IMG/VR virus record: IMGVR_UViG_3300021440_000028
Span: 1 to 52,405 of that record
Source of the DNA: a virus
Length of the DNA stretch: 52,405 nucleotides
Strand: one strand, 5' to 3'
Of the stretch, positions 1-52,404 are shown piece after piece. The translations under genes and the position numbers were made by a program. The notes beneath the pieces are model-generated. The model was not told where the DNA came from, made no database searches, and saw only the letters and a list, made by a program, of their open reading frames with translations. Each line of letters opens with the position of its first letter. Within the stretch, counting starts at the first letter, position 1.

Positions 1-126
1 TCTGAGGCGACGACATGGCACTGATCACCGAAGACGGCACCGCGAAGGCAGACGCCGAGAGCTACTGCAGCGTCGCCGCAGCCGATGCGCACCACGAAGC
101 TCGCGGCATGACCAACTGGGCCTCTC
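1..126. repeat. Terminal direct repeat, copy 1 (circular overlap)
   Basis: Bases 1-126 are identical to 52279-52404; the next base differs (t at 127, a at 52405). A perfect repeat of this size at the two ends is what a circular assembly leaves, so the genome is probably a circle (or circularly permuted) of about 52,278 bp cut here. Confidence 0.9.
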
Positions 127-527
127 TCAGCACGACGGAGAAAGAGCAGGCCCTGCGCCGAGCGACCGACTACATGACGCAGACCTACGGCCCGCTGTGG
201 GCCGGCCTGCGCTCCCTGCCGACGCAGGCGCTGGACTGGCCGCGCAGCGGTTGTCCGCGGCCCGAGATCTTCCAGGGCTTCTGGGCGCCGACCGAGATGC
301 CTCCGGCGCTGATCAAGGGCTGCGCCGAGTTGGCGCTGCGCGCGGCGGCTGGCGAGCTGCTGGGCGACCAGGGCCGCGAGGTGATCGAGCAGACGGTCGG
401 GCCGATCACCACCAAGTACGCGCAGGGCAGTCCCCAGGCGAAGCGCTACGCCGCCGTCGACGCGCTGCTGGCGCCGCTGATGCTGGCGCCGCGCGGCTCG
501 GGCGTGATGCGGATCGTGCGGGCATGA
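15..527 (+). CDS. Head-tail connector protein (DnaT-like fold family)
   Basis: The 170-residue product is predicted to join the neck that connects the portal to the tail. It resembles the phage family labelled 'putative DnaT-like ssDNA-binding', which sits in this place in many siphophages: an N-terminal TEDGTAKADAESYCSV segment, a helical middle with ATDYMTQTYG, and LDWPRSG near residue 75. That label is a fold assignment and is not evidence of replication work. Its stop overlaps the next start (ATGA at 524-527). The circular closure makes it the direct follower of the Ala-rich protein that ends at 52283. Its exact role (adaptor versus stopper) is inferred from gene order. Confidence 0.65.
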   Translation: MALITEDGTAKADAESYCSVAAADAHHEARGMTNWASLSTTEKEQALRRATDYMTQTYGPLWAGLRSLPTQALDWPRSGCPRPEIFQGFWAPTEMPPALIKGCAELALRAAAGELLGDQGREVIEQTVGPITTKYAQGSPQAKRYAAVDALLAPLMLAPRGSGVMRIVRA

Positions 528-955
528 CCGTCATCGCCTGGGATGGCCGTACGCTGGCGGCCGACAAGCGCGCCACCTCTGGCGGCGGCATTGCGCGCAC
601 GGTCACCAAGATCGAGCGGCACGGCGCAGCCCTGATCGCCATGACCGGCTGCTGGGACACGGGCGCCGAGATGCGCGAGTGGTTCAAGGCTGGCGCCGAT
701 CCGGAGAAGTTCCCGGCCAAGGCTCGGGAGGATCGCAGCACGCTGATCGTGATCGACGGCGACGGCATCCGCACCTGGGCAATCGGCCCGCATCCGATGC
801 GAATCGAAGAACCCCGGTGCTGCTGGGGCTCCGGTCGCGACTACGCCGAGGCGGCGATGTACCTGGGCCACGATGCGCGCAAGGCCGTCGAGGTGGCGTG
901 CCACTTTCAGACGGACTGTGGCAACGGCATCGACACGCTGACGCTGGAGGGCTGA
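524..955 (+). CDS. HslV/proteasome-like Ntn hydrolase
   Basis: The 143-residue product aligns by eye with HslV, the bacterial proteasome-like peptidase. After removal of Met1 the chain starts with Thr2, the position of the HslV catalytic threonine. Asp14 (in LAADKRAT) matches HslV Asp17 and Lys29 (in TVTKIERHG) matches Lys33, so the T/D/K set is present. A glycine-rich GSGRDYAEAAM stretch matches the conserved GSGGPYAQAAA of HslV. No unfoldase (HslU) gene lies nearby. It sits between two connector genes and starts inside the previous stop codon, so it is co-expressed with virion assembly genes. Proteolysis of an assembly protein such as the scaffold is inference. Fold confidence is good, function open. 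Confidence 0.75.
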   Translation: MTVIAWDGRTLAADKRATSGGGIARTVTKIERHGAALIAMTGCWDTGAEMREWFKAGADPEKFPAKAREDRSTLIVIDGDGIRTWAIGPHPMRIEEPRCCWGSGRDYAEAAMYLGHDARKAVEVACHFQTDCGNGIDTLTLEG

Positions 956-957
956 CC

Positions 958-1341
958 ATGGCCGTCGACTACACCGCGATCGCCGCCGACACGCTGCAGG
1001 CGCTGGCCGAGGCTGGCGCCGCGGCCACGCTGACCACGCCGGGCGCTGCGACCTATGACCCAGCCACCGGCACGGCCAGCGCGACGCCGACTGACTACAG
1101 CGCCTTCGCGGTGCTGCTGCCGGCCGGCTCCATGAAGGGCGCGGGCCTTGTCTTCGCGCAGGACGTGACGCAGCGCGCGCAGGCCTGGGCGCTGGTGGCG
1201 GCTTCCGGTCTGGCCGCCACGCCAACGCCCGGCTGCATCCTGACCATCGCCGGCACGCGCTACACCGTGATCGGCGCCGATACGCTGCGCCCGAACGGCA
1301 GCACCGCGGTCCTGCACGGCCTGGCTCTGGTGATCGGCTGA
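958..1341 (+). CDS. Small head-tail joining protein, unknown family
   Basis: The 127-residue product starts at an ATG three bases after the Ntn hydrolase stop and ends in TGATG, sharing one base with the next gene. It contains TYDPATGTAS near residue 31 and a C-terminal beta-rich segment (CILTIAGTRYTVIGADTL). That layout is seen in small neck proteins placed before the gp10-like tail completion protein. I assign it to the connector by position and size only. Confidence 0.55.
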   Translation: MAVDYTAIAADTLQALAEAGAAATLTTPGAATYDPATGTASATPTDYSAFAVLLPAGSMKGAGLVFAQDVTQRAQAWALVAASGLAATPTPGCILTIAGTRYTVIGADTLRPNGSTAVLHGLALVIG

Positions 1342-1775
1342 TGGCCCGCGCTCCGTTCGTTGGGCCGCCGCGCCGCGGGTCGTTTGCCCTGCAGATCGGC
1401 GCATGGTCCGACAAGGCGAAGGCCAATGCCGACCAGATCACGCGCAAGCTGGTACTTGAGATCGCCAAGAGCGTGATCCTGAAGTCGCCGGTGGACACCG
1501 GCCGATTCCGCAACAACTGGAACACCAGCTACGGCACGCCGGTGCAGACGATCAGCGACACCGCGGACAAGAGCGGGGCCGGCGCCATCGCCCGCGCCAC
1601 AGCCGTCGCCATGTCGTTCCCGATGGGGCAGACGGTGTGGGTGTGCAACGCGCTTCCCTATGCGCTGCCGCTGGAGTACGGGCACAGCCAGCAAGCGCCC
1701 GCCGGAATGGTCCGGCTCACGCAAGCCGAGTTCCAGGCCAAGGTTGCAGAGATCGCGGCGCAGGTCGCGCGGTAA
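1341..1775 (+). CDS. HK97 gp10-like tail completion protein
   Basis: The 144-residue product carries the family hallmark ILKSPVDTGRFRNNW at about residues 46-60, followed later by NALPYALPLEYGHSQQAPAGMV. Both match the HK97 gp10 / putative neck protein family that completes the tail end docking onto the head. Position and length fit the family. The start overlaps the preceding stop (TGATG), implying coupled translation. Confidence 0.8.
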   Translation: MARAPFVGPPRRGSFALQIGAWSDKAKANADQITRKLVLEIAKSVILKSPVDTGRFRNNWNTSYGTPVQTISDTADKSGAGAIARATAVAMSFPMGQTVWVCNALPYALPLEYGHSQQAPAGMVRLTQAEFQAKVAEIAAQVAR

Positions 1776-1787
1776 GGCGGTGACGCA

Positions 1788-2195
1788 ATGAGCATCCGAA
1801 GCATCCGCGCCGCCCTGGAGGTGGCCCTCAACGCCGTCAGCCCGTCGCTGTCGACCCAGTTCGAGAACGTGCCCTTCACGCCGGTGCAGGGCACGGCCTA
1901 CCAGCGCGTGAACCTGCTGCGCGGCACGTCGGAGAACCCGGCGCTGGGTGCCAGCATGTCGCGCGAGGTCGGCATCCTGCAGGTGACGCTCTGCTACCCG
2001 CTGGGCGCCGGCCCGCAAGCCGCAGAGGACCGCGCCGAACTGCTGCGCTCCACCTTCGCCCGCGGCGCGTCATTCACCGCTGGCGGCGTCACGGTGCACA
2101 TCACCGGCACGACCAGCGTCGGCCCGGCCTACGTCGAAGCCGACCGCTACTGCATCCCCGTCAGCGTGCGGTATCACGCGAACGTCTTCGGCTGA
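1788..2195 (+). CDS. Tail terminator protein (DUF4128-like)
   Basis: The 135-residue product lies between the gp10-like protein and the tail tube, the usual place of the tail terminator that caps the growing tube. Visible features are an N-terminal helix (IRSIRAALEVALNAV), a middle strand set including EVGILQVTLCYPLG, and C-terminal YVEADRYCIPVSVRYHANVFG, typical of DUF4128-type terminators. A purine-rich stretch (aaggcggtga) precedes the ATG. Confidence 0.7.
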   Translation: MSIRSIRAALEVALNAVSPSLSTQFENVPFTPVQGTAYQRVNLLRGTSENPALGASMSREVGILQVTLCYPLGAGPQAAEDRAELLRSTFARGASFTAGGVTVHITGTTSVGPAYVEADRYCIPVSVRYHANVFG

Positions 2196-14255: not shown

Positions 14256-15341
14256 TCAGGCCGTGATTTTCCGGTCGTTCGGCGCTACGGTCTGCGTCCA
14301 CCTGGCCTTGATGTAGATCTCGGTCGTGCTGGCCTTCGAGTGGCCGCACAGCAGCTGGATGCGCTCGATCGGCTCGCCGGCCAGCCACATGTCAGTGGCG
14401 CCCTTGCCCTTCAGGTCGCGAAAGCCGAAGGCGGGCATCTTGGCCAGCGCCTTGTGCTTCTGCCGGGCCTTGCCCTGGGCCCGCTTCAGCATCGCGCTGA
14501 TCCCGCTGTAGCTGTAGGCCTCGCCGGTCAGCGTGTGCACGATTGGTTGATGCAGCACCGGCACGGCACCGATGGCCTGATCCAGCAGCGCGGCCAGGTC
14601 TCCGGTCACCGCAATCTGCACGCCGCGGCCGGTCTTGCGCTGCTGGAACGCCAGCACGCGGCCACCCTCGGGCGACTGCTTCACCACCGCCGCCGTCCAG
14701 CCCAGGATGTCGGACTCGGGGCGCTGCAGGGTGCGATAGGTCAGCTCCATCAACAGCCGCACGGTGGGGGGCGCCTCTTCGTAGACGGCCTGGTACTCAG
14801 CATCGGTCACGTAGCGGGCGCGTGCGGTTTCGCTGTTGCGCTGGATGCCGCTCGCTCGCATGCACGGGTTGATCTTCAGGCCGCCGTGCCGGTTGCGCAG
14901 CATCCAGCTGATGCACGACGACAGCGCCGCGCGCTCGCGGTTGGCGCGGACCGCCCGGCCTTCTTTCGCCCCCTCCTTCAGGTAGGCGTCGATGTGGTGG
15001 GGCTCGATCTGCTGCGGCAGGAAGTGGCCGAAGATCTGGCGCAGCATGCCCGGTTCGTCGGCCGTGCCGAACGCATCCTGGTAGTCCTTCAGGGTGCGCT
15101 CGCTGCGGAGCTTGGCGCGAACCTGCTGCTCGAAGTCCAGCAGGAACTGCTGCATGAACCAGGTCATCGTGCCGTAGGTGCCTGTCGGGTCAGCGTAGTG
15201 CTCGGCTTTGCGCTTCGCCGCGGCCAGGTCCTTGCCCAGGTTCTCCCACTTGCCTGACCGGTGGGCGTAGAAGAACGAGCCGTGGCGCAGGTACACCCGC
15301 TGCGGCAGGCCCAGGCTGTCGTCCTTACGCTTTCTGCCCAC
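14256..15341 (-). CDS. int: Tyrosine-type site-specific integrase
   Basis: The 361-residue product has an N-terminal arm-binding part (residues 1-60), a core-binding SAM-like domain (60-165) and a catalytic domain. Visible active-site positions are Arg207 (YRTLQRPESD), Lys236 (QQRKTGRG), Arg308/Lys311 (FGFRDLKGKGATD), His334 (LLCGHSKAS) and Tyr343 (TTEIYIK). The usual box II HxxR is replaced by RDLK, as in related integrases with RDLR. The gene ends beside attP and starts inside the DUF4224 gene (17-nt overlap), making it the last gene of the long leftward operon. Confidence 0.9.
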   Translation of the reverse strand: MGRKRKDDSLGLPQRVYLRHGSFFYAHRSGKWENLGKDLAAAKRKAEHYADPTGTYGTMTWFMQQFLLDFEQQVRAKLRSERTLKDYQDAFGTADEPGMLRQIFGHFLPQQIEPHHIDAYLKEGAKEGRAVRANRERAALSSCISWMLRNRHGGLKINPCMRASGIQRNSETARARYVTDAEYQAVYEEAPPTVRLLMELTYRTLQRPESDILGWTAAVVKQSPEGGRVLAFQQRKTGRGVQIAVTGDLAALLDQAIGAVPVLHQPIVHTLTGEAYSYSGISAMLKRAQGKARQKHKALAKMPAFGFRDLKGKGATDMWLAGEPIERIQLLCGHSKASTTEIYIKARWTQTVAPNDRKITA

Positions 15342-32001: not shown

Positions 32002-32172
32002 ATGTCACGAGGTCAACGACCCAACCTGATCCGAGCAGGCCGGCCAACGAAGCTGTCCAAGGTCCTGGCGCAGTGCAACGCCGACGCCGAGCGCATGCGG
32101 CAGGAAGCCGCGCAGCGGGCGAAGACGGACCAGCCGGCGCCGGTTGTGCTGGGCGAGAAGGTGGCAGCGTGA
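32002..32172 (+). CDS. Small basic protein before helicase-methyltransferase
   Basis: A 56-residue protein MSRGQRPNLIRAGRPTKLSK, VLAQCNADAERMRQEAAQRA. A strong AGGAGAAG ribosome site supports this ATG over upstream ones. The GRPTK motif and helix could bind DNA. It overlaps the GTG of the fusion gene by 4 nt. Confidence 0.55.
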   Translation: MSRGQRPNLIRAGRPTKLSKVLAQCNADAERMRQEAAQRAKTDQPAPVVLGEKVAA

Positions 32173-34673
32173 GCGACTACACCGCTTTCCTGCGCCAGAA
32201 GATCAAGATGGCCAGCTTCAAGGGCTTCCAGGTGGAGCCCGAGGCCTGCCATCCCTGCCTGTTCCCGCACCAGCGCGACATCGTGCGCTGGGCCGTGCTG
32301 GGCGGTAACCGCGCCATCTTCGCCAGCTTCGGCCTGGGCAAGAGCGTGATGCAGTGCGAGTGGTTGCGGCAGATCGGCGCGGCCGTGCCGGGCGATGACC
32401 CTCTGCTGATCGTCTGCCCGTTGGGCGTGCGGCAGGAACTGATCCGCGACGCGGCGATGCTCGGCATCGAGCTGCGGTTCATCCGCACCGAGGCCGAGAT
32501 GGAGCCGGGCCACCGCTTCTACTGCACGAACTACGAGAGCGTGCGCGACGGCAAGCTGAACCCGCAGATCTTCCTGGCCGTCAGCCTGGACGAGGCGAGC
32601 GTGCTGCGCAGCTTCGGCAGCAAGACCTATCAGGAGTTCCTGCCGCTGTTCGAAGGCGTGCGCTTCAAGCTGGTGAACACGGCCACGCCGAGCCCGAACC
32701 GCTTCAAGGAGTTGATCCACTACGCCGGCTTCCTGGGCGTGATGGACACCGGCCAGGCGCTGACCCGGTTCTTCCAACGCGACAGCGAGAAGGCCGGCAA
32801 CCTGACGCTCTACCCGCACAAGGAGCAGGAGTTCTGGCTGTGGGTGAGCAGCTGGGCAGTCTTCGTGCAGCGCCCGAGCGACCTGGGCTACAGCGACGAG
32901 GGCTATGACCTGCCGCCGATCGAGGTCCGGTACCACGAGGTGCCGACCGACTACAGCCAGGCCGGCGCCGACCGCGACGGGCAGGTCCTGATGTTCACCG
33001 ACCCGGCGCTGGGTCTGAGTGCTGCAGCAGCCGAGAAGCGCGACAGCATGCCTGCTCGCGTGGCGAAGGTGGCGGAGATCCTGGCCGCTTCACCGGCTGA
33101 CCACTTCGTGATCTGGCACGACCTGGAAAGTGAGCGGCACGCCCTGCAGGCGGCGATCCCCGAGGCCGTCAGCGTCTGGGGCAGCCAGGACCTGGACGAG
33201 CGCGAGCGCCGCATCGTGGCCTTTGGCGACGGTGAGTTCCGCGTGCTGTCGACCAAGCCGGTGATCGCCGGCAGCGGCTGCAACTTCCAGCGCCACTGCC
33301 ACCGCGAGGTCTTCGCCGGGATCGGCTTCAAGTTCAACGACTTCATCCAGGCCATCCACCGCGTGCAGCGCTTCCAGCAGCCGCACCCGGTGGTGATCGA
33401 CATCGTCTACAGCGAAGCCGAGCGCGAGGTCCTGCGCACGCTGCAGCAGAAGTGGACCCAACACGAGGAGATGGTGCAGAACATGACCGAGATCATCAAG
33501 CAGTACGGCCTGAACCAGTTGGCCATGCAGGAGGTGCTGGCCAGGTCGATCGGCGTGAAGCGTCTGGAGGTCAAGGGCGACCTGTTCGCGGTGGCCAACA
33601 ACGACTGTGTGGAAGAGGCGAAGCTGCAGCCCGAGAACCACGTCGACCTGATCGTCACCAGCATCCCGTTTGCGAACCACTACGAATACAGCCCGAGCTA
33701 CAACGACTTCGGGCACACCGAGGACAACGACCACTTCTGGCAGCAGATGGACCATCTGACGCCCGAGCTGCTGCGCATCCTGAAGCCGGGCCGCATCTAC
33801 GCCTGCCACGTCAAGGACCGGATCCTGTTTGGCAACGTGACCGGCGCCGGCGCACCGACCGTCAGCCCGTTCCACTGCGAGGCCATCATGCACGGCCGCA
33901 AGCACGGCTTAGACTACATGGGCCTGATCACCGTCGTCACTGACGTGGTGCGGGAGAACAACCAGACCTACCGCCTGGGCTGGTCCGAGCAGTGCAAGGA
34001 CGGCACGAAGATGGGCGTCGGGTCGCCCGAGTACATCGTCCTGTTCCGCAAGCCGCAGACCGATCGGTCGAAGGGCTACGCCGACGTGCCGGTGGCCAAG
34101 TCGAAGCAGGCCTACACCCGCGCGCACTGGCAGGTCGACGCGCATGCCTTCTGGCGCAGCAGCGGCAACCGGCAGATCACCGCCGACGAGCTCGCCGGCC
34201 TGGGTCCGGACAAGCTGGCCAGCATCTTCACGCAGTACAGCCTGCAGCACGTCTACGACTACGAGTTCCACGTCCGGATCGGCGAGGAACTGGAGGCCCG
34301 CGGCGCGCTGCCGTCGACCTTCATGAGCCTGGCGCCCGGTAGCCATCACCCGGATGTGTGGCACGACGTGACCCGCATGCTGACGCTGAACAGCGAGCAG
34401 AGCCGGCGCGCGGTCGAGAAGCACGTCTGCCCGCTGCAGTTCGACATCGTGGACCGCCTGATCGAGCGCTACAGCAACGCGGGCGAGCTGGTCTATGACC
34501 CGTTCTGTGGCCTGGGGACCGTGCCCTACCGGGCCATCCTGAAGGGCCGGCGCGGCGGTGGCAGCGAGCTGAACCCGGCCTACTTCCTGGACCAGGTGCA
34601 CTACCTGAAAGCGGCCGAGCGCGAGTTCTCCATGCCGTCGCTGTTCGATGCGCTGGAGGCGGAAGCCGCATGA
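32169..34673 (+). CDS. Helicase-DNA methyltransferase fusion
   Basis: The 834-residue product (GTG start in GTGA with the upstream stop) joins an SNF2/DEAD-like helicase and an amino-methyltransferase. Helicase: PHQRDIVRWA near residue 33, Walker A FGLGKS (54-59), Walker B variant SLDEAS (139-144), TATPSPNRF (motif III), later KPVIAGSGCNFQRHC and FIQAIHRVQRFQQP (motifs V-VI). Methyltransferase: catalytic TSIPF at 497-501 (a variant of TSPPY) and SAM-binding DPFCGLGT at about 777-784. The order (motif IV before I) is the beta class. It probably modifies phage DNA against host restriction, with the motor acting in cis. No nuclease domain is seen. Confidence 0.8.
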   Translation: MSDYTAFLRQKIKMASFKGFQVEPEACHPCLFPHQRDIVRWAVLGGNRAIFASFGLGKSVMQCEWLRQIGAAVPGDDPLLIVCPLGVRQELIRDAAMLGIELRFIRTEAEMEPGHRFYCTNYESVRDGKLNPQIFLAVSLDEASVLRSFGSKTYQEFLPLFEGVRFKLVNTATPSPNRFKELIHYAGFLGVMDTGQALTRFFQRDSEKAGNLTLYPHKEQEFWLWVSSWAVFVQRPSDLGYSDEGYDLPPIEVRYHEVPTDYSQAGADRDGQVLMFTDPALGLSAAAAEKRDSMPARVAKVAEILAASPADHFVIWHDLESERHALQAAIPEAVSVWGSQDLDERERRIVAFGDGEFRVLSTKPVIAGSGCNFQRHCHREVFAGIGFKFNDFIQAIHRVQRFQQPHPVVIDIVYSEAEREVLRTLQQKWTQHEEMVQNMTEIIKQYGLNQLAMQEVLARSIGVKRLEVKGDLFAVANNDCVEEAKLQPENHVDLIVTSIPFANHYEYSPSYNDFGHTEDNDHFWQQMDHLTPELLRILKPGRIYACHVKDRILFGNVTGAGAPTVSPFHCEAIMHGRKHGLDYMGLITVVTDVVRENNQTYRLGWSEQCKDGTKMGVGSPEYIVLFRKPQTDRSKGYADVPVAKSKQAYTRAHWQVDAHAFWRSSGNRQITADELAGLGPDKLASIFTQYSLQHVYDYEFHVRIGEELEARGALPSTFMSLAPGSHHPDVWHDVTRMLTLNSEQSRRAVEKHVCPLQFDIVDRLIERYSNAGELVYDPFCGLGTVPYRAILKGRRGGGSELNPAYFLDQVHYLKAAEREFSMPSLFDALEAEAA

Positions 34674-38487: not shown

Positions 38488-39143
38488 ACACTGCCAGCAC
38501 CCTTCAGCAAGTTCCGGCAACCTTCGCCGCATCCAAGATCATCGGCAAGCACCGATTCGGTCCAGGCCTTGTTCTTCGCGTTGCTGCTGTCGGGTCTTCG
38601 TGGATCTTCCGGTACACGTCGCCAGTCACCGGGAAACGGCGCGAGATAGGGCTTGGCCCGCTGGCAGCAATGAACGACGAGCAGTTCGCGGCTGAGTTGG
38701 CGCGCCACCGATCCGACGTGCACAAGTTCCACATGGAGATTCGACAGGGGCGTTGTCCGCTGGCCGAGAAGCAGGCCGCTGATGCCAGCAGAAAGGTCGA
38801 GTCAATCCGAAGCCGGGGGCTGACCGTCCGAAGAATGTTGCGCAAGTGGTGCGATGCAAACGAGAGCCGATGGTCGACGAAGTACGCATCGTCAGTGGCG
38901 CGGATGATCGAGAACGATCCGCCAGGGTGGCTGCTGGACATCCCGGCCATCGACTTGACGGCAGAGCACGTCATCGATGCGCTGCGCGAGATGGAGCGGA
39001 ACATCCCCGCCCGCCGGATCGACCTTGCGCGGCAGCGCCTCTCATGGGCCCTGGAGTGGATGATCGACGGCGGCCACCTGTCCGCGAACGCGGCCGGCGT
39101 GCTGCGCATCGTGCGTGGGCGCTTTGCCGAGGTCGACGCATGA
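38484..39143 (+). CDS. Integrase-like protein lacking the catalytic domain
   Basis: The 219-residue product matches the first two domains of P4-type integrases. The N-terminal arm-binding domain has GPGLVLRVAAVGSSWIFRYT, SPVTGKRREIGLGPLAAMND. The core-binding domain has LTVRRMLRKWCDANESRWST, WLLDIPAIDLTAEHVIDALR, LARQRLSWALEWMIDGGHLS. It stops where the R...HxxR...Y catalytic domain should begin. The frame is intact and overlaps both neighbours by ATGA, so this is a kept gene, not decay. It probably binds DNA; whether at attP, host sites or the late promoter just downstream is unknown. Confidence 0.7.
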   Translation: MNTASTLQQVPATFAASKIIGKHRFGPGLVLRVAAVGSSWIFRYTSPVTGKRREIGLGPLAAMNDEQFAAELARHRSDVHKFHMEIRQGRCPLAEKQAADASRKVESIRSRGLTVRRMLRKWCDANESRWSTKYASSVARMIENDPPGWLLDIPAIDLTAEHVIDALREMERNIPARRIDLARQRLSWALEWMIDGGHLSANAAGVLRIVRGRFAEVDA

Positions 39144-41792: not shown

Positions 41793-43205
41793 ATGGCCCA
41801 AACCGTCGCATCACAGTCGCAGGAAGTCGCCGAGATGTCGGCCGACTGGGAGCTGTGTGAGGACCTGCTGGAAGGCACGCGGGCCATGCGCGCGGCGCGC
41901 GGCAAGTACCTGCCAAAGTGGCCGGCCGAGGAGGCCGACGCCTACGACGCCCGCGTGAAGTCGGCGGTCCTGTTCCCGGCCTACAGCCGCACGGTCTCGA
42001 CGCTGACCGGCAAGCCGTTCGGCAAGCCGCTGGTGCTGAGCGAGGATGCGCCGCCGCAGGTTGTCAAGTGGATGCAGGACGCCGACCGCGAGGGCCGCAA
42101 CCTGCACGCCTTCGCGGCCGACTGCATGCAGACGGCGCTGGGCTTCGGGTTCGGCGGCATCCTGGTTGAGTACCCGGTCGTGAAGCGCGAGCCCGGCTCC
42201 CGGCCGCTGACTCAGGCCGAGGAAGCGGCACAGAAGCTGCGGCCCTATCTGGTGCTGGTCAAGCCCGAGCGCATCCTGGGCTGGCGCACGCAGCGCGTGA
42301 ACGGCCAGACGGTGCTGACGCAGCTTCGGCTGATGGAGGAGATCGAGGAGCCCGACGGCGAGTGGGGCGTGAAGTGCGTCGACCAGGTGCGCGTGCTGAC
42401 GCCCGGAGCCTGGGAGATCTGGCGCAAGCCGGAGGGGAAGGATTGGCAGGACGCGACGCTGTTCGACAGCGGCACCACGTCGCTGGCCTACATCCCGTTC
42501 GTGCCGTTCTACGGACAGCGCGAGGGCTTCATGGAGGCCAAGCCCCCTTTGCTGGAGGTCGCACACCTGAACGTCGCGCACTGGCAGTCGGCCAGCGACC
42601 AGCAGAACATCCTGCACGTTGCCCGGGTGCCGATCCTGTTCGGCAAGATGCTGGGCGATGGCGTGACGCTGAAGGTCGGCGCGCAGTCTGGCGTGATGGC
42701 CACGACGCCCGAGGCCGATCTGAAGTGGGTTGAGCACTCGGGCGCGGCGATCGAGGCCGGCAAGGCAGATCTGGAGGCGCTGGAAGAGCGCATGCGCCAG
42801 GCCGGCGCCGAGCTGCTGGTGATCAAGCCTGGCCAGGTCACAGCAACGCAGACGGGCGTCGAGAACGCCGTCGGCATGTGCGCGCTGCAGCGCATCACGC
42901 TGGACCTGCAGGATGCGCTGAACGCGGCGCTGGCGATCGTCTCGGAGTACGCGAAGCTGCAGCCGGCGGCCACGGTCACGATCTACAGCGACTTCGGCGT
43001 GTCGACGCTGGCCGAGGCCTCCGCCGATCTGCTGCGCAACGCAGCCGATGGCGGCTACATCAGCGCGGTGTCGTTCCGCGAGGAACTGCGTCGCCGCAAC
43101 CAGTACGCGGTCGACGAGGACACCGAACTGGCGCGGCTGGAGGCGCAGGGGCCGAACCTGGGCACGGTGAACAACCCGGCGGGCGGCGGTGGCAACGCTC
43201 AATGA
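41793..43205 (+). CDS. Portal protein (DUF4055-type)
   Basis: The 470-residue product has YLPKWPAEEADAYDARVKSA, YSRTVSTLTGKPFGKPLVLS, then ALGFGFGGILVEYPVV, YLVLVKPERILGWRTQRVNG, and SLAYIPFVPFYGQREGFMEA with KPPLLEVAHLNVAHWQSASD, all marks of the DUF4055 portal family. Placed between terminase and minor head protein. Overlaps the next gene by 17 nt. Confidence 0.85.
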   Translation: MAQTVASQSQEVAEMSADWELCEDLLEGTRAMRAARGKYLPKWPAEEADAYDARVKSAVLFPAYSRTVSTLTGKPFGKPLVLSEDAPPQVVKWMQDADREGRNLHAFAADCMQTALGFGFGGILVEYPVVKREPGSRPLTQAEEAAQKLRPYLVLVKPERILGWRTQRVNGQTVLTQLRLMEEIEEPDGEWGVKCVDQVRVLTPGAWEIWRKPEGKDWQDATLFDSGTTSLAYIPFVPFYGQREGFMEAKPPLLEVAHLNVAHWQSASDQQNILHVARVPILFGKMLGDGVTLKVGAQSGVMATTPEADLKWVEHSGAAIEAGKADLEALEERMRQAGAELLVIKPGQVTATQTGVENAVGMCALQRITLDLQDALNAALAIVSEYAKLQPAATVTIYSDFGVSTLAEASADLLRNAADGGYISAVSFREELRRRNQYAVDEDTELARLEAQGPNLGTVNNPAGGGGNAQ

Positions 43206-44304
43206 CCGGCTGCAGGATGATGTCGTCTCGCACGCCGTCGACCTGCAGCAATTCGGAAATCACCTGGTCGCGAGGATCATCGCGCAGCTCAATCGGACCG
43301 ACGCAGAGCTGATCGGCCGGCTGCAGGCAGCCCTGGATGGGCTGCCGGCGACGGCCACAAGCGTGGAGAGGATCGGCGCGCTGCTGCAGAGCGTGCGGAC
43401 GCTGAACCTGACGGCCTACCAGGCGATCGAGCGCGAGCTGACCGCCGAGCTGCGCGCGCTGGCCGACTACGAGGCCGGGCACCAGCTGGAGCTGTTCCGC
43501 GCCGAGATCCCGCCGCAGATCGTCACCCGCGTGGGCGTGGCGGCGGTCAACGTCGAGCAGGTGTTCGCCGCGGCCATGTCCCGGCCGTTCCAGGGCCGGC
43601 TGCTGCGCGAGTGGGCGGCGGACATCGGCGAGGCCCGGATGGTGCGCATTCGCGACGCGGTGCGGCAGGGCTTCGTGCAGAACGAGAGCATCGGCCAGAT
43701 CGTGCAGCGCATCCGCGGCACGCGGGCCAGGGCCTACAAGGACGGCCTGCTGGAGATCGACCGGCGCGGCGCCGAGGCGGTGGTGCGGACGGCAGTCAGC
43801 CACACGGCCGGCTTCGTGCGCGATCGGTTCATGGAGCAGAACGGCGACCTCGTGAAGGCCGAGGTCTGGACATCGACGCTGGACAGCCGCACCAGCGAGG
43901 GATGCCGGATCCGCGACGGCCTGCAGTACACGCCAGGCGATCACAAGCCGATCGGGCACAAGGTGCCATGGCTCGGCGGGCCGGGCCGGCTGCACTGGTG
44001 CTGTCGCAGCACGGCGGTGCCGGTGGTGAAGTCCTGGCGCGAGCTGGGCGTGCCGATCGATGAGATGCCGCCCGGCGAGCGGGCCAGCATGGATGGCCAG
44101 GTGCCCGCCGACACGACGTTCGCGGCCTGGATCAAGCGGCAGAGCGCCGCGCGGCAGGATCAGGTGCTGGGCGCCACGCGCGGCCGGCTGATGCGTTCCG
44201 GCGGGATGGATCTGCCGGACTTCTACGACAACAAGGGGACGATGCTCACCCTGGACGAGCTGCGCCAGCGCGACGCGGCGGCATTCAGGCGGGCAGGGCT
44301 GTAG
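43189..44304 (+). CDS. Mu F-like minor head protein
   Basis: The 371-residue product (GTG start) has a helical first half and the Mu F/SPP1 gp7 domain in its second half: VVRTAVSHTAGFVRDRFMEQ, LVKAEVWTSTLDSRTSEGCR, then GPGRLHWCCRSTAVPV. These proteins sit inside the head near the portal and may be injected with DNA. Full length. Confidence 0.85.
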   Translation: MATLNDRLQDDVVSHAVDLQQFGNHLVARIIAQLNRTDAELIGRLQAALDGLPATATSVERIGALLQSVRTLNLTAYQAIERELTAELRALADYEAGHQLELFRAEIPPQIVTRVGVAAVNVEQVFAAAMSRPFQGRLLREWAADIGEARMVRIRDAVRQGFVQNESIGQIVQRIRGTRARAYKDGLLEIDRRGAEAVVRTAVSHTAGFVRDRFMEQNGDLVKAEVWTSTLDSRTSEGCRIRDGLQYTPGDHKPIGHKVPWLGGPGRLHWCCRSTAVPVVKSWRELGVPIDEMPPGERASMDGQVPADTTFAAWIKRQSAARQDQVLGATRGRLMRSGGMDLPDFYDNKGTMLTLDELRQRDAAAFRRAGL

Positions 44305-44551: not shown

Positions 44552-44685
44552 TCTGCAAGCCCCGCATCAAGCGCGACGGCCGCGGCTGGGCATGTGCAGG
44601 CCTTGGCAAGGAAGGCAACGGCAGGACGCCCCGCGCAGCGTTTCTCGACTGGCTGAACGAGGCCAGCTTCTTCCCGTACATCTGA
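44548..44685 (+). CDS. 45-residue conserved small protein
   Basis: From a GTG overlapping the Zn-finger gene stop (GTGA): VICKPRIKRDGRGWACAGLG, KEGNGRTPRAAFLDWLNEAS, FFPYI. The W-x-C-x-G-x-G...G-x-T-P-x-x-A-F-x-x-W pattern is seen in short phage proteins and seems designed to bind a partner. Too short to classify. Confidence 0.55.
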   Translation: MICKPRIKRDGRGWACAGLGKEGNGRTPRAAFLDWLNEASFFPYI

Positions 44686-44823
44686 AGCCCGCCGGACTGG
44701 CAGCGACGGGCCCAGCGCCAGCCGGCGAGCACCCCCGGCTGTCGAGACTGCCAGACCGGCCAACCAGGGCGCCGCGCTTGCCGGACGCGCACTCTCCAGC
44801 CCGACATCAGACGCACTACTCCG

Positions 44824-44856
44824 AAGGCCCCGCGGCGCAAGTCACGGGGCCTTTCT
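44824..44856 (+). terminator. Intercistronic terminator-like hairpin
   Basis: AAGGCCCCG (44824-44832) pairs with CGGGGCCTT (44845-44853), followed by TCTC. It is in the 281-nt gap before the scaffold gene; a promoter for the capsid block downstream is not evident. Confidence 0.5.
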
Positions 44857-44966
44857 CATGCCCGCGCCGCGGATGCGGCAGGGCATCCAGGCCGGACGGC
44901 CACCAATCGCGGCGGATGCCGCACCCACCCGCTGGCGGACGCCGGCGCAACCTTGACCACACCACT

Positions 44967-45740
44967 ATGCCCTTCAAGTACGACGCCCAAGGCCAGATCG
45001 TCACCGCCGACCACAACGGCATCAAGCTCCCCGTGTTCGTCCACCCGGACGGCAAGGAGGCGCCGTTTGATGCTGACGGCACGATCAACTCGATCAACGC
45101 CCGCGCCGAGCAGTCGCGCCGCGTTGAAGGCGAGAACAAGACGCTCAAGGAGCAACTTGCCGCGTTCGATGGTCTGGACGCCGTGAAGGCCCGCGAAGCC
45201 ATCGAGAAGATGAGCACCGTCGATCTGTCGAAGATGGTGCACGCAGGCGAAGTGGAGAAGGTCAAGGGCGAGATCGCCAAGACCTACGAGGCGAAGCTGG
45301 CCGCCAAGGACCAGGAGATGGCGCAGAAAGACGCGGCCATTTGGAAGCGCACGATGGACGCCGCCTTCAACGGCTCCAAGTTCATCGGCGAGAAGGTCGC
45401 CATCCCCGCGCAGTTCCTGCGCTCCACCTACGCCCAGCACTTCAAGCCGGGCGAGGACGGCGAGCCGGTCGGCTACTTTGCTGACGGTCGACCGATCATG
45501 TCCTCCAGCACGCCGACCAAGTTCGCGTCCTTTGATGAGGCGATGGAATCGATCATCGCCTCAGACCCTCACAAGGCGTCGATCCTGAAGGGCAGCGGCG
45601 CGTCCGGTGGTGGCGCGACCGGCGGTGGCAGCGGCGGTGGCAACGGCAAGACCCAGATCTCGCGCGCAGCCTGGCAGGCCCTGAGCCCGCTGGAGCAGCG
45701 CGCCAAGGCGACCGACCCCAAGGTCGAGATCGTCGACTGA
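44967..45740 (+). CDS. Scaffolding protein
   Basis: The 257-residue product has a short beta-rich start (MPFKYDAQGQIVTADHNGIK, FVHPDGKEAPFDADGTINSI), a central coiled coil (about 45-130, EQSRRVEGENKTLKEQLAAF, EVEKVKGEIAKTYEAKLAAK) and a C-terminal part with Gly-rich linker and basic end (NGKTQISRAAWQALSPLEQR). It sits directly before the P22-like capsid gene. The scaffold assembles the prohead and leaves. No cleavage site is evident. Confidence 0.75.
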   Translation: MPFKYDAQGQIVTADHNGIKLPVFVHPDGKEAPFDADGTINSINARAEQSRRVEGENKTLKEQLAAFDGLDAVKAREAIEKMSTVDLSKMVHAGEVEKVKGEIAKTYEAKLAAKDQEMAQKDAAIWKRTMDAAFNGSKFIGEKVAIPAQFLRSTYAQHFKPGEDGEPVGYFADGRPIMSSSTPTKFASFDEAMESIIASDPHKASILKGSGASGGGATGGGSGGGNGKTQISRAAWQALSPLEQRAKATDPKVEIVD

Positions 45741-45840: not shown

Positions 45841-47141
45841 ATGGCAAACCTCCGCACTTCCCTCCGCACCGCTGCGCTGGCCTTCGTGGCCGCCGTCGCG
45901 GCCTTCAACCCGATCGCCACCATGGCCTCCGCCACCGCGCGGCTGGCCGACTGGCTGCTGCAACCGGTGCCCCAGGGCGGCGTCCTGGCCGCCAACACGC
46001 TGACCGGCATGATCAGCACCATCTACACGGCGCTCGACGTCGTGTCGCGCGAGCTGATCGGCTTCATCCCGTTCGTGTCGCGTGACGCCACCAGCGCCAG
46101 CGGTGCGGTCGGCCAGACCGTGCGCTCGCCGATCGCTCCCGCGATCAGCCTGGAAGACGTCAGCCCGGGCGCGACCCCGGCCGACTCGGGCGACCAGACC
46201 ATCGGCTATGCCGACGTGACGATCACCCGCAGCAAGGCCGCGCCGATCCGCTGGACCGGTGAGGAGCAGCTGTCGGTCAGCCAGTTCGGCCAATACAACG
46301 TGATTTTGGCCGGTCAGTTCCAGCAGGCCTTCCGCGCGCTGGCCAACCTGGTGGAGAGCGACATCGCGCTGGCAGCCAAGGCCGCCGCGTCGCGCGCCTA
46401 CGGCACGGCCGGCACCACGCCGTTCGCCACCGCGGCCGATCTGTCGGACCTGTCGCAGATCAACAAGATCCTGGACGACAACGGCGCCCCCGCGTCGGGC
46501 CGCGCGATGGTGCTGAACTCGGCCTCGCGCGCCGTGCTGGAAGGCAAGCACAGCGAGCTGTTCCGCGTGAACGAGGCGGGTGACGCTGCCGCCATGCTGC
46601 GCGAGCGCCAGATGCGTCGCCTGATGGGCTTCAGCATGGGCTACTCGGCCGGCCTGGTGACGCACACCAAGGGCACGGGCGCCAGCTACCTGGTGAACAA
46701 CGGCAGCGGCATCGCCATCGGCGGCACGACCATCGCGGCCGACACCGGCTCTGGCACCGTCCTGGCCGGCGACGTGGTGACCTTCGCGGCCGACTCGGCC
46801 AACAAGTACGTGGTCGGCACCGCGCTGTCCGGCGGTTCGTTCTCGCTGAACAAGCCGGGCGCCCTGGTGGCTATCCCCGACAACAACGCCATCACCGTGG
46901 GCAACAACTACACGCCCAACATCGCGTTCACGCAGAACGCGATCGTGCTGGCAGCCCGGGTGCCGGCCATGCCGGAAGGCGGCGACTCGGCCGACGACGT
47001 GATGCTGAGACCGATCCAGTCTCGGGCCTGACCTTCCAGGTCGCCATGTACCGCCAGTACCGCCGCGTGAAGATCGAGGTGTCGCTGGCCTGGGGCGTGG
47101 GCACGCCGAAATCGGAACACATCGCCCTGTTGCTGGGCTGA
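45841..47141 (+). CDS. P22-like major capsid protein, reading frame broken near 47008
   Basis: The predicted product is about 433 residues, as for P22 coat (430). The frame from the ATG at 45841 gives 389 good residues ([20 protein letters not shown] ... [10 protein letters not shown]) and then turns to RPIQSRA and a stop at 47029-47031. From 47010 the -1 frame continues the coat C-terminus, [43 protein letters not shown], to 47141. One missing base between 47007 and 47010 (for example AAG read as AG) restores it. No slippery site is present, so it is a sequencing/assembly error or a real mutation. Confidence 0.85.
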
Positions 47142-48683: not shown

Positions 48684-50069
48684 ATGGCAATCAGCTTCTG
48701 GTGGCTCGGCCACGCAACCACTGCCACCGCCCGCGTACTGGTGCGTGGCACCACCAACGGCGCAGTGACTGTCAGCGGCAGTTTTGGCAGCGTGTCGGCC
48801 ACGCTGGACACCACAGTCAATGACGGCGTGGTGGTGCTCAACGTCAACGGCCTGGCGCCCAACACCAGCTACCCCATCACCATCACCGACGCCTCGGGCG
48901 CATCCGAAGTGGGCGCGCTCAAGACCATGCCCAGCATCGGCGGCAAGGTGGCCTTCATCTCCTGCGACGAGCGGGTGCGCTCGCTGACGGACCTCGCGCA
49001 GAACATCATTGCGGCCGGCGCGAATGCGGTGTGCCACGAGGGCGACTACGTGTATGTCGCGGCCAACCTCACCAACTACAACGGCGAGACCAGCCCGGCC
49101 ATCAACACTGCCAGCACCCCGGCCAATTACGCCAACCACTGGCGCCAGTGCAAGCGCAAAGCCGACAAGCGGTTGCTTGAAACGATGGTCCCGCACTACT
49201 ACATGTTCGACGACCACGAGTTCGGCGGCGACAACTGGGACCATTCGGTCAAGCTGGCGCAGACCACGCTCAACGTCGCCAGCGGCAGCACCGACACGGG
49301 CGGCCTCGGGCTCAACGGCAGCGCGGAGGTGGATGCCTCGTGGTGGGCCGCACGTCAGGCTGCTGCCTACTACATGGCTGGCAACCCGGCGTCCGAATAC
49401 ACGGCTGACAAGCCGCAGGGTGCCCAGGCTGGCACTGCAGCCAGCCAGTACCCGGCTGCTGGATACCGTTTCATGGTGGGAGACATCGAGGTGTTTCACC
49501 CCGATCTGTTCACCTCGCGGTCATTCCTGGCCGCCACGGACAACGCCAGCAAGACCATGCTGGGCGCGGCGCAGAAAGCCTGGCTGAAGGCGGCCCTGCT
49601 TGCCTCCACCGCCACCTTCAAGGTGATCGCCAGCGGCAAGACCACGTACAAGGCCACTGCCGGCGGCACCGGCGATGACTGGACGGTCTATAGCACCGAG
49701 CGCGACGAACTGATCGACTACATCAATGCCCAGGGCATCAAGGGCGTGGTGTGGATGTGTGGTGATGCACACGGAGCCTTCGTCAGCTACGACCCGGCCA
49801 AGGGCCACATTGCGGTCTGTGCCAACCCGGCCGGCGTCGATCACATCGTGCAGGCCACTGGCTACCAGCCGTTCACGGTGTGGAAGGAAAGCGCGTACAC
49901 ACCCAACGCCACCACCGACCCGCGCAAGGCTGGCCTGTTCGGTCTTTGCGAAGTGGTCACCGCGGCCAGCGGCTTGAAGACCCTGCTGGTGCGCCTCATC
50001 GACCAGTACGGCGTCGAGCTGTGGCGCGGTCAGGTCGACCAGGGCACCAACGTGCTGCGCACGGCCTGA
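48684..50069 (+). CDS. PhoD-like metallophosphatase in virion gene block
   Basis: The 461-residue product has an N-terminal FnIII-like part (about 5-82, ATTATARVLVRG, LNVNGLAPNTSYPITITDAS) as in PhoD. A metallophosphatase domain follows with the PhoD motif set: SCDER (C94, D95), CHEGDYVYVA (117-126), MFDDHEFGGDNWD (174-186) and WMCGDAHGAFVSY (D361, H363). All metal ligands appear kept. No signal peptide. PhoD enzymes hydrolyse phosphodiesters/monoesters. In this position it may be carried on the particle and act on host surface polymers, or supply phosphate. Confidence 0.8.
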   Translation: MAISFWWLGHATTATARVLVRGTTNGAVTVSGSFGSVSATLDTTVNDGVVVLNVNGLAPNTSYPITITDASGASEVGALKTMPSIGGKVAFISCDERVRSLTDLAQNIIAAGANAVCHEGDYVYVAANLTNYNGETSPAINTASTPANYANHWRQCKRKADKRLLETMVPHYYMFDDHEFGGDNWDHSVKLAQTTLNVASGSTDTGGLGLNGSAEVDASWWAARQAAAYYMAGNPASEYTADKPQGAQAGTAASQYPAAGYRFMVGDIEVFHPDLFTSRSFLAATDNASKTMLGAAQKAWLKAALLASTATFKVIASGKTTYKATAGGTGDDWTVYSTERDELIDYINAQGIKGVVWMCGDAHGAFVSYDPAKGHIAVCANPAGVDHIVQATGYQPFTVWKESAYTPNATTDPRKAGLFGLCEVVTAASGLKTLLVRLIDQYGVELWRGQVDQGTNVLRTA

Positions 50070-51560: not shown

Positions 51561-52283
51561 GTGGCCCGCGGCCTGTTCGCTTCTGAGGCGGTCGCGCAGG
51601 GGTGGTTTGCGCCCGAGGCGCTAGCGCTCGGGTGGTTTGACGAAGCGCTGATCGACGCCGGCAGCACTGCTGGAGCATCCGCAAGCGCTGCGCAGTTGCT
51701 CGCCGCTCCCGCGCAGGCGGCAACAGCTGCGGTGACGGCGCAGGCGCAGTCCTCGCAAGCACTCGCGGCACCATCGCAATCCGCAGCCGCTGGCGTCACA
51801 GCCACAGCAGCAGCATCCCAGACCCTGCCGGCGGCATCACAGTCGGCTGCGGCCGGTGTGAACGTCGCCGCCGCGGCTTCGCAGTCGGTGGCGGCTGTTG
51901 CGCAGGTGGCCGCCGCTTCGGTGGCGCCGGCCAGCGATCGGAACGCGCAGGCCGCGCAGAACCTGGCGGCGCCGGTGCAGTCAGCAACGGCGGCAGTCGT
52001 TATCGCTGCCGGCTCCATCGTCGTGATGGACCCGGCGATCAACGCGGCTGTCGCAGCGGTCCTGGTGGCCGCTTCGGCATCGCAGGCCCTGCAGGCTGTG
52101 ACGCAGTCGGCGACGGCTGCCGGCCCGAACACCGACGAGACCTACCCGCTGGCCGGCGACATCCAGGCCTACCCAGTCGGCGCCGCGCAGGCCTATCCGC
52201 TCAGCGCCGCGGCCGACTACCCGCTGGCTGGCCAAGCTCAGGCGCTGCCTCTGGCCGGCATCCGCCAGACCTACCCGATCTGA
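51561..52283 (+). CDS. Ala-rich repeat virion protein
   Basis: The 240-residue product (GTG start directly after the previous stop) has three parts. The start has FASEAVAQGWFAPEALALGW then FDEALID (two F-x-x-EA-x-A-x-GWF repeats). The middle (about 40-180) is an Ala/Ser/Gln/Val-rich repeat (AASQ, SAAAGV units). The end has five or six YPL-x-G-x-x-QA repeats (ETYPLAGDIQAYPVGAAQAY...TYPI). Repetitive, probably fibrous; could be a head or neck whisker. Next gene is the connector at position 15. Confidence 0.6.
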   Translation: MARGLFASEAVAQGWFAPEALALGWFDEALIDAGSTAGASASAAQLLAAPAQAATAAVTAQAQSSQALAAPSQSAAAGVTATAAASQTLPAASQSAAAGVNVAAAASQSVAAVAQVAAASVAPASDRNAQAAQNLAAPVQSATAAVVIAAGSIVVMDPAINAAVAAVLVAASASQALQAVTQSATAAGPNTDETYPLAGDIQAYPVGAAQAYPLSAAADYPLAGQAQALPLAGIRQTYPI

Positions 52284-52404
52284 GGCGACGACATGGCACT
52301 GATCACCGAAGACGGCACCGCGAAGGCAGACGCCGAGAGCTACTGCAGCGTCGCCGCAGCCGATGCGCACCACGAAGCTCGCGGCATGACCAACTGGGCC
52401 TCTC
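52279..52404. repeat. Terminal direct repeat, copy 2
   Basis: Exact copy of bases 1-126; the final base (52405, a) departs from base 127 (t). It marks circular closure of the assembly. Confidence 0.9.

Follow-up and report, generated by a model that had tools for sequence, protein, structure and literature searches.

Proteasome-like proteins of tailed phages and their hosts have been described by Fuchs, Alva and Lupas as the PPH family, whose members measure ~140 residues, possess the catalytic set, lack both helix H2 and a propeptide, and radiate from BPH, the central group I cluster (PMC8665760). Another proteasome homolog, connectase, ligates instead of degrading (PMC8665760). Judged by the published description of PPH, the product encoded at 524–955 of the window, the whole stretch of 52,405 nt analysed here and an IMG/VR virus contig, is a member of this already known family. 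Its core is a proteasome-like beta-sheet with the Thr/Ser, Asp, Lys and oxyanion Gly residues, its length is 143 residues against the published ~140, with relatives mostly of 141–147, and Thr2 directly follows Met1, leaving no propeptide. In the model H2 is absent and the other flanking helices are present; the protein comes from a phage contig and its relatives occur in Burkholderiales, several beside phage genes. No difference from PPH appeared in the features tested, and statistics on placement among neck genes are absent from the main text of PMC8665760. A literature search for any PPH found no activity, substrate or expression data and no virion proteomics of PPH carriers. What this locus adds is an active site under strong constraint, the optional nature of the gene among neck operons that otherwise match, and its occurrence in phages already equipped with a maturation protease, a combination that shifts the search for a substrate from obligatory head maturation to an accessory role.

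The gene occupies 524–955 on the plus strand with an ATG start, and the ORF check returned these coordinates and this frame exactly. Its codon-usage score (+48.9) is that of a coding sequence, and dN/dS values of 0.05–0.25 over 12 pairs of relatives indicate purifying selection on the family. Immediately upstream stands the gene of the head-tail adaptor Ad1 (15–527, plus strand; phrog_477 E 2e-47, PF20557 E 4e-44), whose TGA is overlapped by the ATG of the PPH gene in an ATGA stop/start arrangement (524–527, plus strand). The gene of the head closure protein Hc1 (958–1341, plus strand; phrog_161 E 1e-14) starts 2 bp past the PPH stop and is followed by those of the tail completion or Neck1 protein (1341–1775, plus strand; phrog_169 E 7e-50), the tail terminator (1788–2195, plus strand; PF13554 E 2e-29) and the tail tube. 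Translation of the Ad1 and PPH genes may be coupled through the ATGA. A bare ATGA was discarded as evidence of coupling, since any Met-Thr start (ATG ACN) yields it anyway; what does inform is a preceding reading frame that terminates at this point, and in 45 of 72 relatives the TGA of the ATGA closes such an ORF.

A direct terminal repeat of 126 bp (1–126, again at 52279–52404) suggests that the genome is probably complete and circularly closed, and the integrase gene at 14256–15341 marks the phage as temperate. Through this repeat the head module at the far end continues into the neck genes. That other half of the module, preceded by a Q-like gene (position 39140), contains TerS (40011), TerL (40495) and portal (41793), and extends over a MuF-type head morphogenesis protein (43189–44304, plus strand; phrog_241 E 9e-149), a scaffold protein candidate (44592–45740, plus strand, with a possible start at 44967; phrog_206 head scaffolding E 2e-23, DUF6651, gene call) and a P22-coat-like major head protein (45841–47031, plus strand; phrog_283 E 4e-77). 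Between the latter and Ad1, a PhoD-like phosphatase gene (48684–50069; PF09423 E 1e-25) stands inside the head module. Elsewhere in the window, 32169–34673 encodes a protein of 834 aa that carries an N6/N4 DNA methylase domain at its C-terminus and whose N-terminal half has no family match. Relatives of the PPH protein in bacterial genomes belong mostly to Burkholderiales, several of them accompanied by head and neck genes of phages, the nearest being that of Variovorax ginsengisoli (75% identity).

Sequence comparison and structural modelling agree that the product is a proteasome/HslV-fold Ntn hydrolase with an intact catalytic set. Over its full length it matches PHROG 1040, the 'peptidase HslV family' (E 4e-30), whose annotated members occur in Jedunavirus, Yokohamavirus and Bixiavirus phages and whose profile, at 277 positions, is broader than PPH and matches cellular genomes too. 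A profile of 64 relatives searched against the PDB retrieved HslV (E 1.8e-4), then BPH and the proteasome. The AlphaFold (AF2) model (pLDDT 97, pTM 0.90) has helices at 44–55, 105–113 and 118–128, with H2 reduced to a short turn at 65–69. Its top Foldseek match was BPH (5ovt, E 3.5e-9), which differs in being a cellular protein of ~185 residues with a heptameric double ring and a long pore loop. The best structural match was obtained with VIA-align, which aligned the model to E. coli HslV (4g4e) with Z 18.4 and 2.2 A over 139 residues and superposed Thr2 on the mature Thr1. In addition to this position, the fold and the catalytic set, the protein shares the GSG.YA.AA motif with HslV (ClpQ), but identity is only ~22%, the phage protein is 30 residues shorter, and it has neither H2 nor an HslU partner gene. 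The curated NCBIfam cut-off for HslV was not reached by it, and two of the 64 relatives match weakly. Searches of Pfam, NCBIfam and PADLOC gave no match to the 143-aa protein, and the blanks in the last two indicate that catalogues of defence proteins do not include it.

Across the 64 aligned relatives Asp14, Lys29 and Gly42 never vary, and all 109 relatives carry Thr or Ser as residue 2 (103 T and 6 S by scripted count, one S being a mis-trimmed sequence, L141, whose start reads MTVV). As MTVIAWDG served as the search seed for part of the sample, conservation of Thr2 is biased in that part; a query without residues 1–19 (covering loci of at least 52% identity only) and a plain tblastn were run as controls, and both agree on Thr/Ser at residue 2. 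The preliminary description had proposed a minimal 143-residue protein of proteasome fold with Thr2, Asp14 and Lys29 in the HslV catalytic positions, embedded by an ATGA overlap in a neck operon, and on all these points it is borne out: comparison of the predicted structure with HslV yielded an Ntn fold, relatives keep the threonine or a serine, and the gene sits between Ad1 and Hc1.

Placement among neck genes is common but optional, being neither universal nor bound to a lineage. It was found for 24 of the 109 relatives, which is a lower bound because the sequence profiles used for scoring were derived from this window and miss some distant neck genes, and 57 loci fell under other or unclassified contexts. 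On the PPH tree, built from a short alignment (146 columns) and with many open forks, neck placement changes 18 times, of which at least 10 changes are forced by well-supported branches (about 10 as a minimum), and neck placement as the mark of one lineage was rejected on these counts. Elsewhere the immediate neighbours of PPH are phrog_14539/14605 genes, TerS, TerL, portal, scaffold, MuF, holin or DNA polymerase genes. One PPH gene (L056) lies between portal and MuF and overlaps both. In cultured phages, with annotations taken as deposited, PPH adjoins holins and the endolysin in Escherichia phage Ivi, lies immediately 3' of TerL in Caulobacter phage BL47, and occupies the strand opposite to the structural/tail genes in Klebsiella phage IME346 and Edwardsiella phage PEi21. 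Among eight loci selected by Ad1, PPH precedes Hc1 in two and is absent from six, two of which, L108 and L109, look like one phage; in L110–L112 Ad1 stands directly beside Hc1 with no gene between. Neck assembly, therefore, does not need PPH.

An optional gene of shifting location is best accommodated by an accessory peptidase acting in trans, and we consider it probable that the 524–955 product is a catalytically competent Ntn enzyme of PPH type, activated by methionine aminopeptidase. Since methionine aminopeptidase tolerates a Thr as second residue, the nucleophile could be freed at translation without autoprocessing: the host enzyme would remove Met1 and expose Thr2 in a protein devoid of propeptide. 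As conservation and fold suggest, Thr2 would then attack peptide bonds with the assistance of Lys29 and Asp14, the amide of Gly42 contributing to the oxyanion hole, and the target would be a phage or host protein supplied in trans. The gene would be carried at varying genome sites, among which the late head/packaging module is frequent but not exclusive, and its translation would be coupled to that of whichever gene stands upstream. In the phage of the window, the late-operon position, running from the Q-like gene and TerS through TerL onward and joined to PPH through the terminal repeat, suggests that the protein is probably a late product of the infection; such timing does not hold for PPH in general, given the opposite-strand genes of IME346 and PEi21. 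Subunits of the proteasome and of HslV must assemble into rings to be active, and for PPH a standard HslU-capped HslV ring appears less likely, H2 being absent from the model.

Several of these data could also be read as signs of a dedicated morphogenetic protease, which would take over the work of a prohead protease, with the scaffold, Ad1, Hc1 or a further connector protein as its substrate. The tight overlapping position between Ad1 and Hc1 and the neck location of 24 among the 109 relatives, with many others in the head/packaging module, are in keeping with this reading, as is the lack of any S78, ClpP-type or S49 protease in the 52,405-nt contig; likewise, the portions inspected of Escherichia phage Ivi, BUCT626 and DSL-LC04 carry no annotated maturation protease. 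The PPH product itself has an Ntn fold, and is not a prohead protease of S78, S49 or ClpP type. However, phages with Ad1 and Hc1 mostly do without PPH, whose position shifts repeatedly, and in IME346 and PEi21 the gene stands side by side with an annotated head maturation protease. A family-wide substitution for the prohead protease was rejected on the evidence of these two phages, which carry both genes, and such a swap fails as a rule. P22-type scaffolds, moreover, are recycled uncleaved. We thus regard a dedicated morphogenetic protease as unlikely, and substitution for the prohead protease in carriers of P22-type coats as a possibility. For the neck-located subset, it is rather improbable that PPH acts on one specific protein of the neck or scaffold, by cleavage or ligation, while the head is being completed; if it did, virion morphogenesis would have its first example of a proteasome-type enzyme. 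The preliminary description had raised a peptidase acting on scaffold or connector, which would be new, a view that is not supported here, since PPH has been published with 143 residues as a normal size and the neck slot is optional and one of several. The P22-type head on which it drew is tentative, the major head protein matching PF11651 at E 7e-5, below the cut-off.

Docking with the host AAA+ unfoldase HslU, or mixing into HslV rings, by which the phage would redirect or inhibit host proteolysis, is a distinctly improbable alternative to the accessory peptidase. HslV is the closest solved fold and the PPH profile finds the E. coli protein, and the phage encodes no AAA_2 unfoldase domain of its own. 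However, only a short turn is left of H2, as published for PPH (PMC8665760), and the conserved active site speaks against a pure inhibitor. With helix H2 missing and no AAA+ unfoldase encoded, pairing with host HslU or HslV is not favoured. Less probable again is a connectase-like ligase or transpeptidase that joins two phage or host proteins: connectase and PPH are alike in lacking H2, but the PPH model, unlike connectase, has H1, and it shows no counterpart of the two helices that connectase inserts between S3 and S4 as a cover over its active site. That the protein is a non-catalytic structural or minor virion component retaining only the fold, as its place among virion genes might suggest, is very improbable, because selection on the fold alone does not predict Thr/Ser2 without exception together with D14, K29 and G42 invariant in 64 relatives. 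The accessory, trans-acting peptidase is the reading that we retain.

Proteasome-like proteins of phages and plasmids extend beyond the loci discussed so far. The viral structure library contains further examples in phages CcrColossus ('Ntn hydrolase') and CcrBL9 ('proteasome subunit beta'). A PPH relative of 177 aa with an N-terminal Thr (L105; NZ_CP090091.1, 285987–286520), matched in 18 Rhizobium plasmids, is encoded on a Rhizobium symbiosis plasmid within the nif/nod cluster, with nifA-nifB-nifT on one side and nodI/nodABC on the other; its annotation as 'peptidase S14' looks wrong. On a phage-like Chromobacterium plasmid with an N4-gp56-type capsid (L106, 7001–7837), a PPH domain is joined to a C-terminal extension in a protein of 278 aa.
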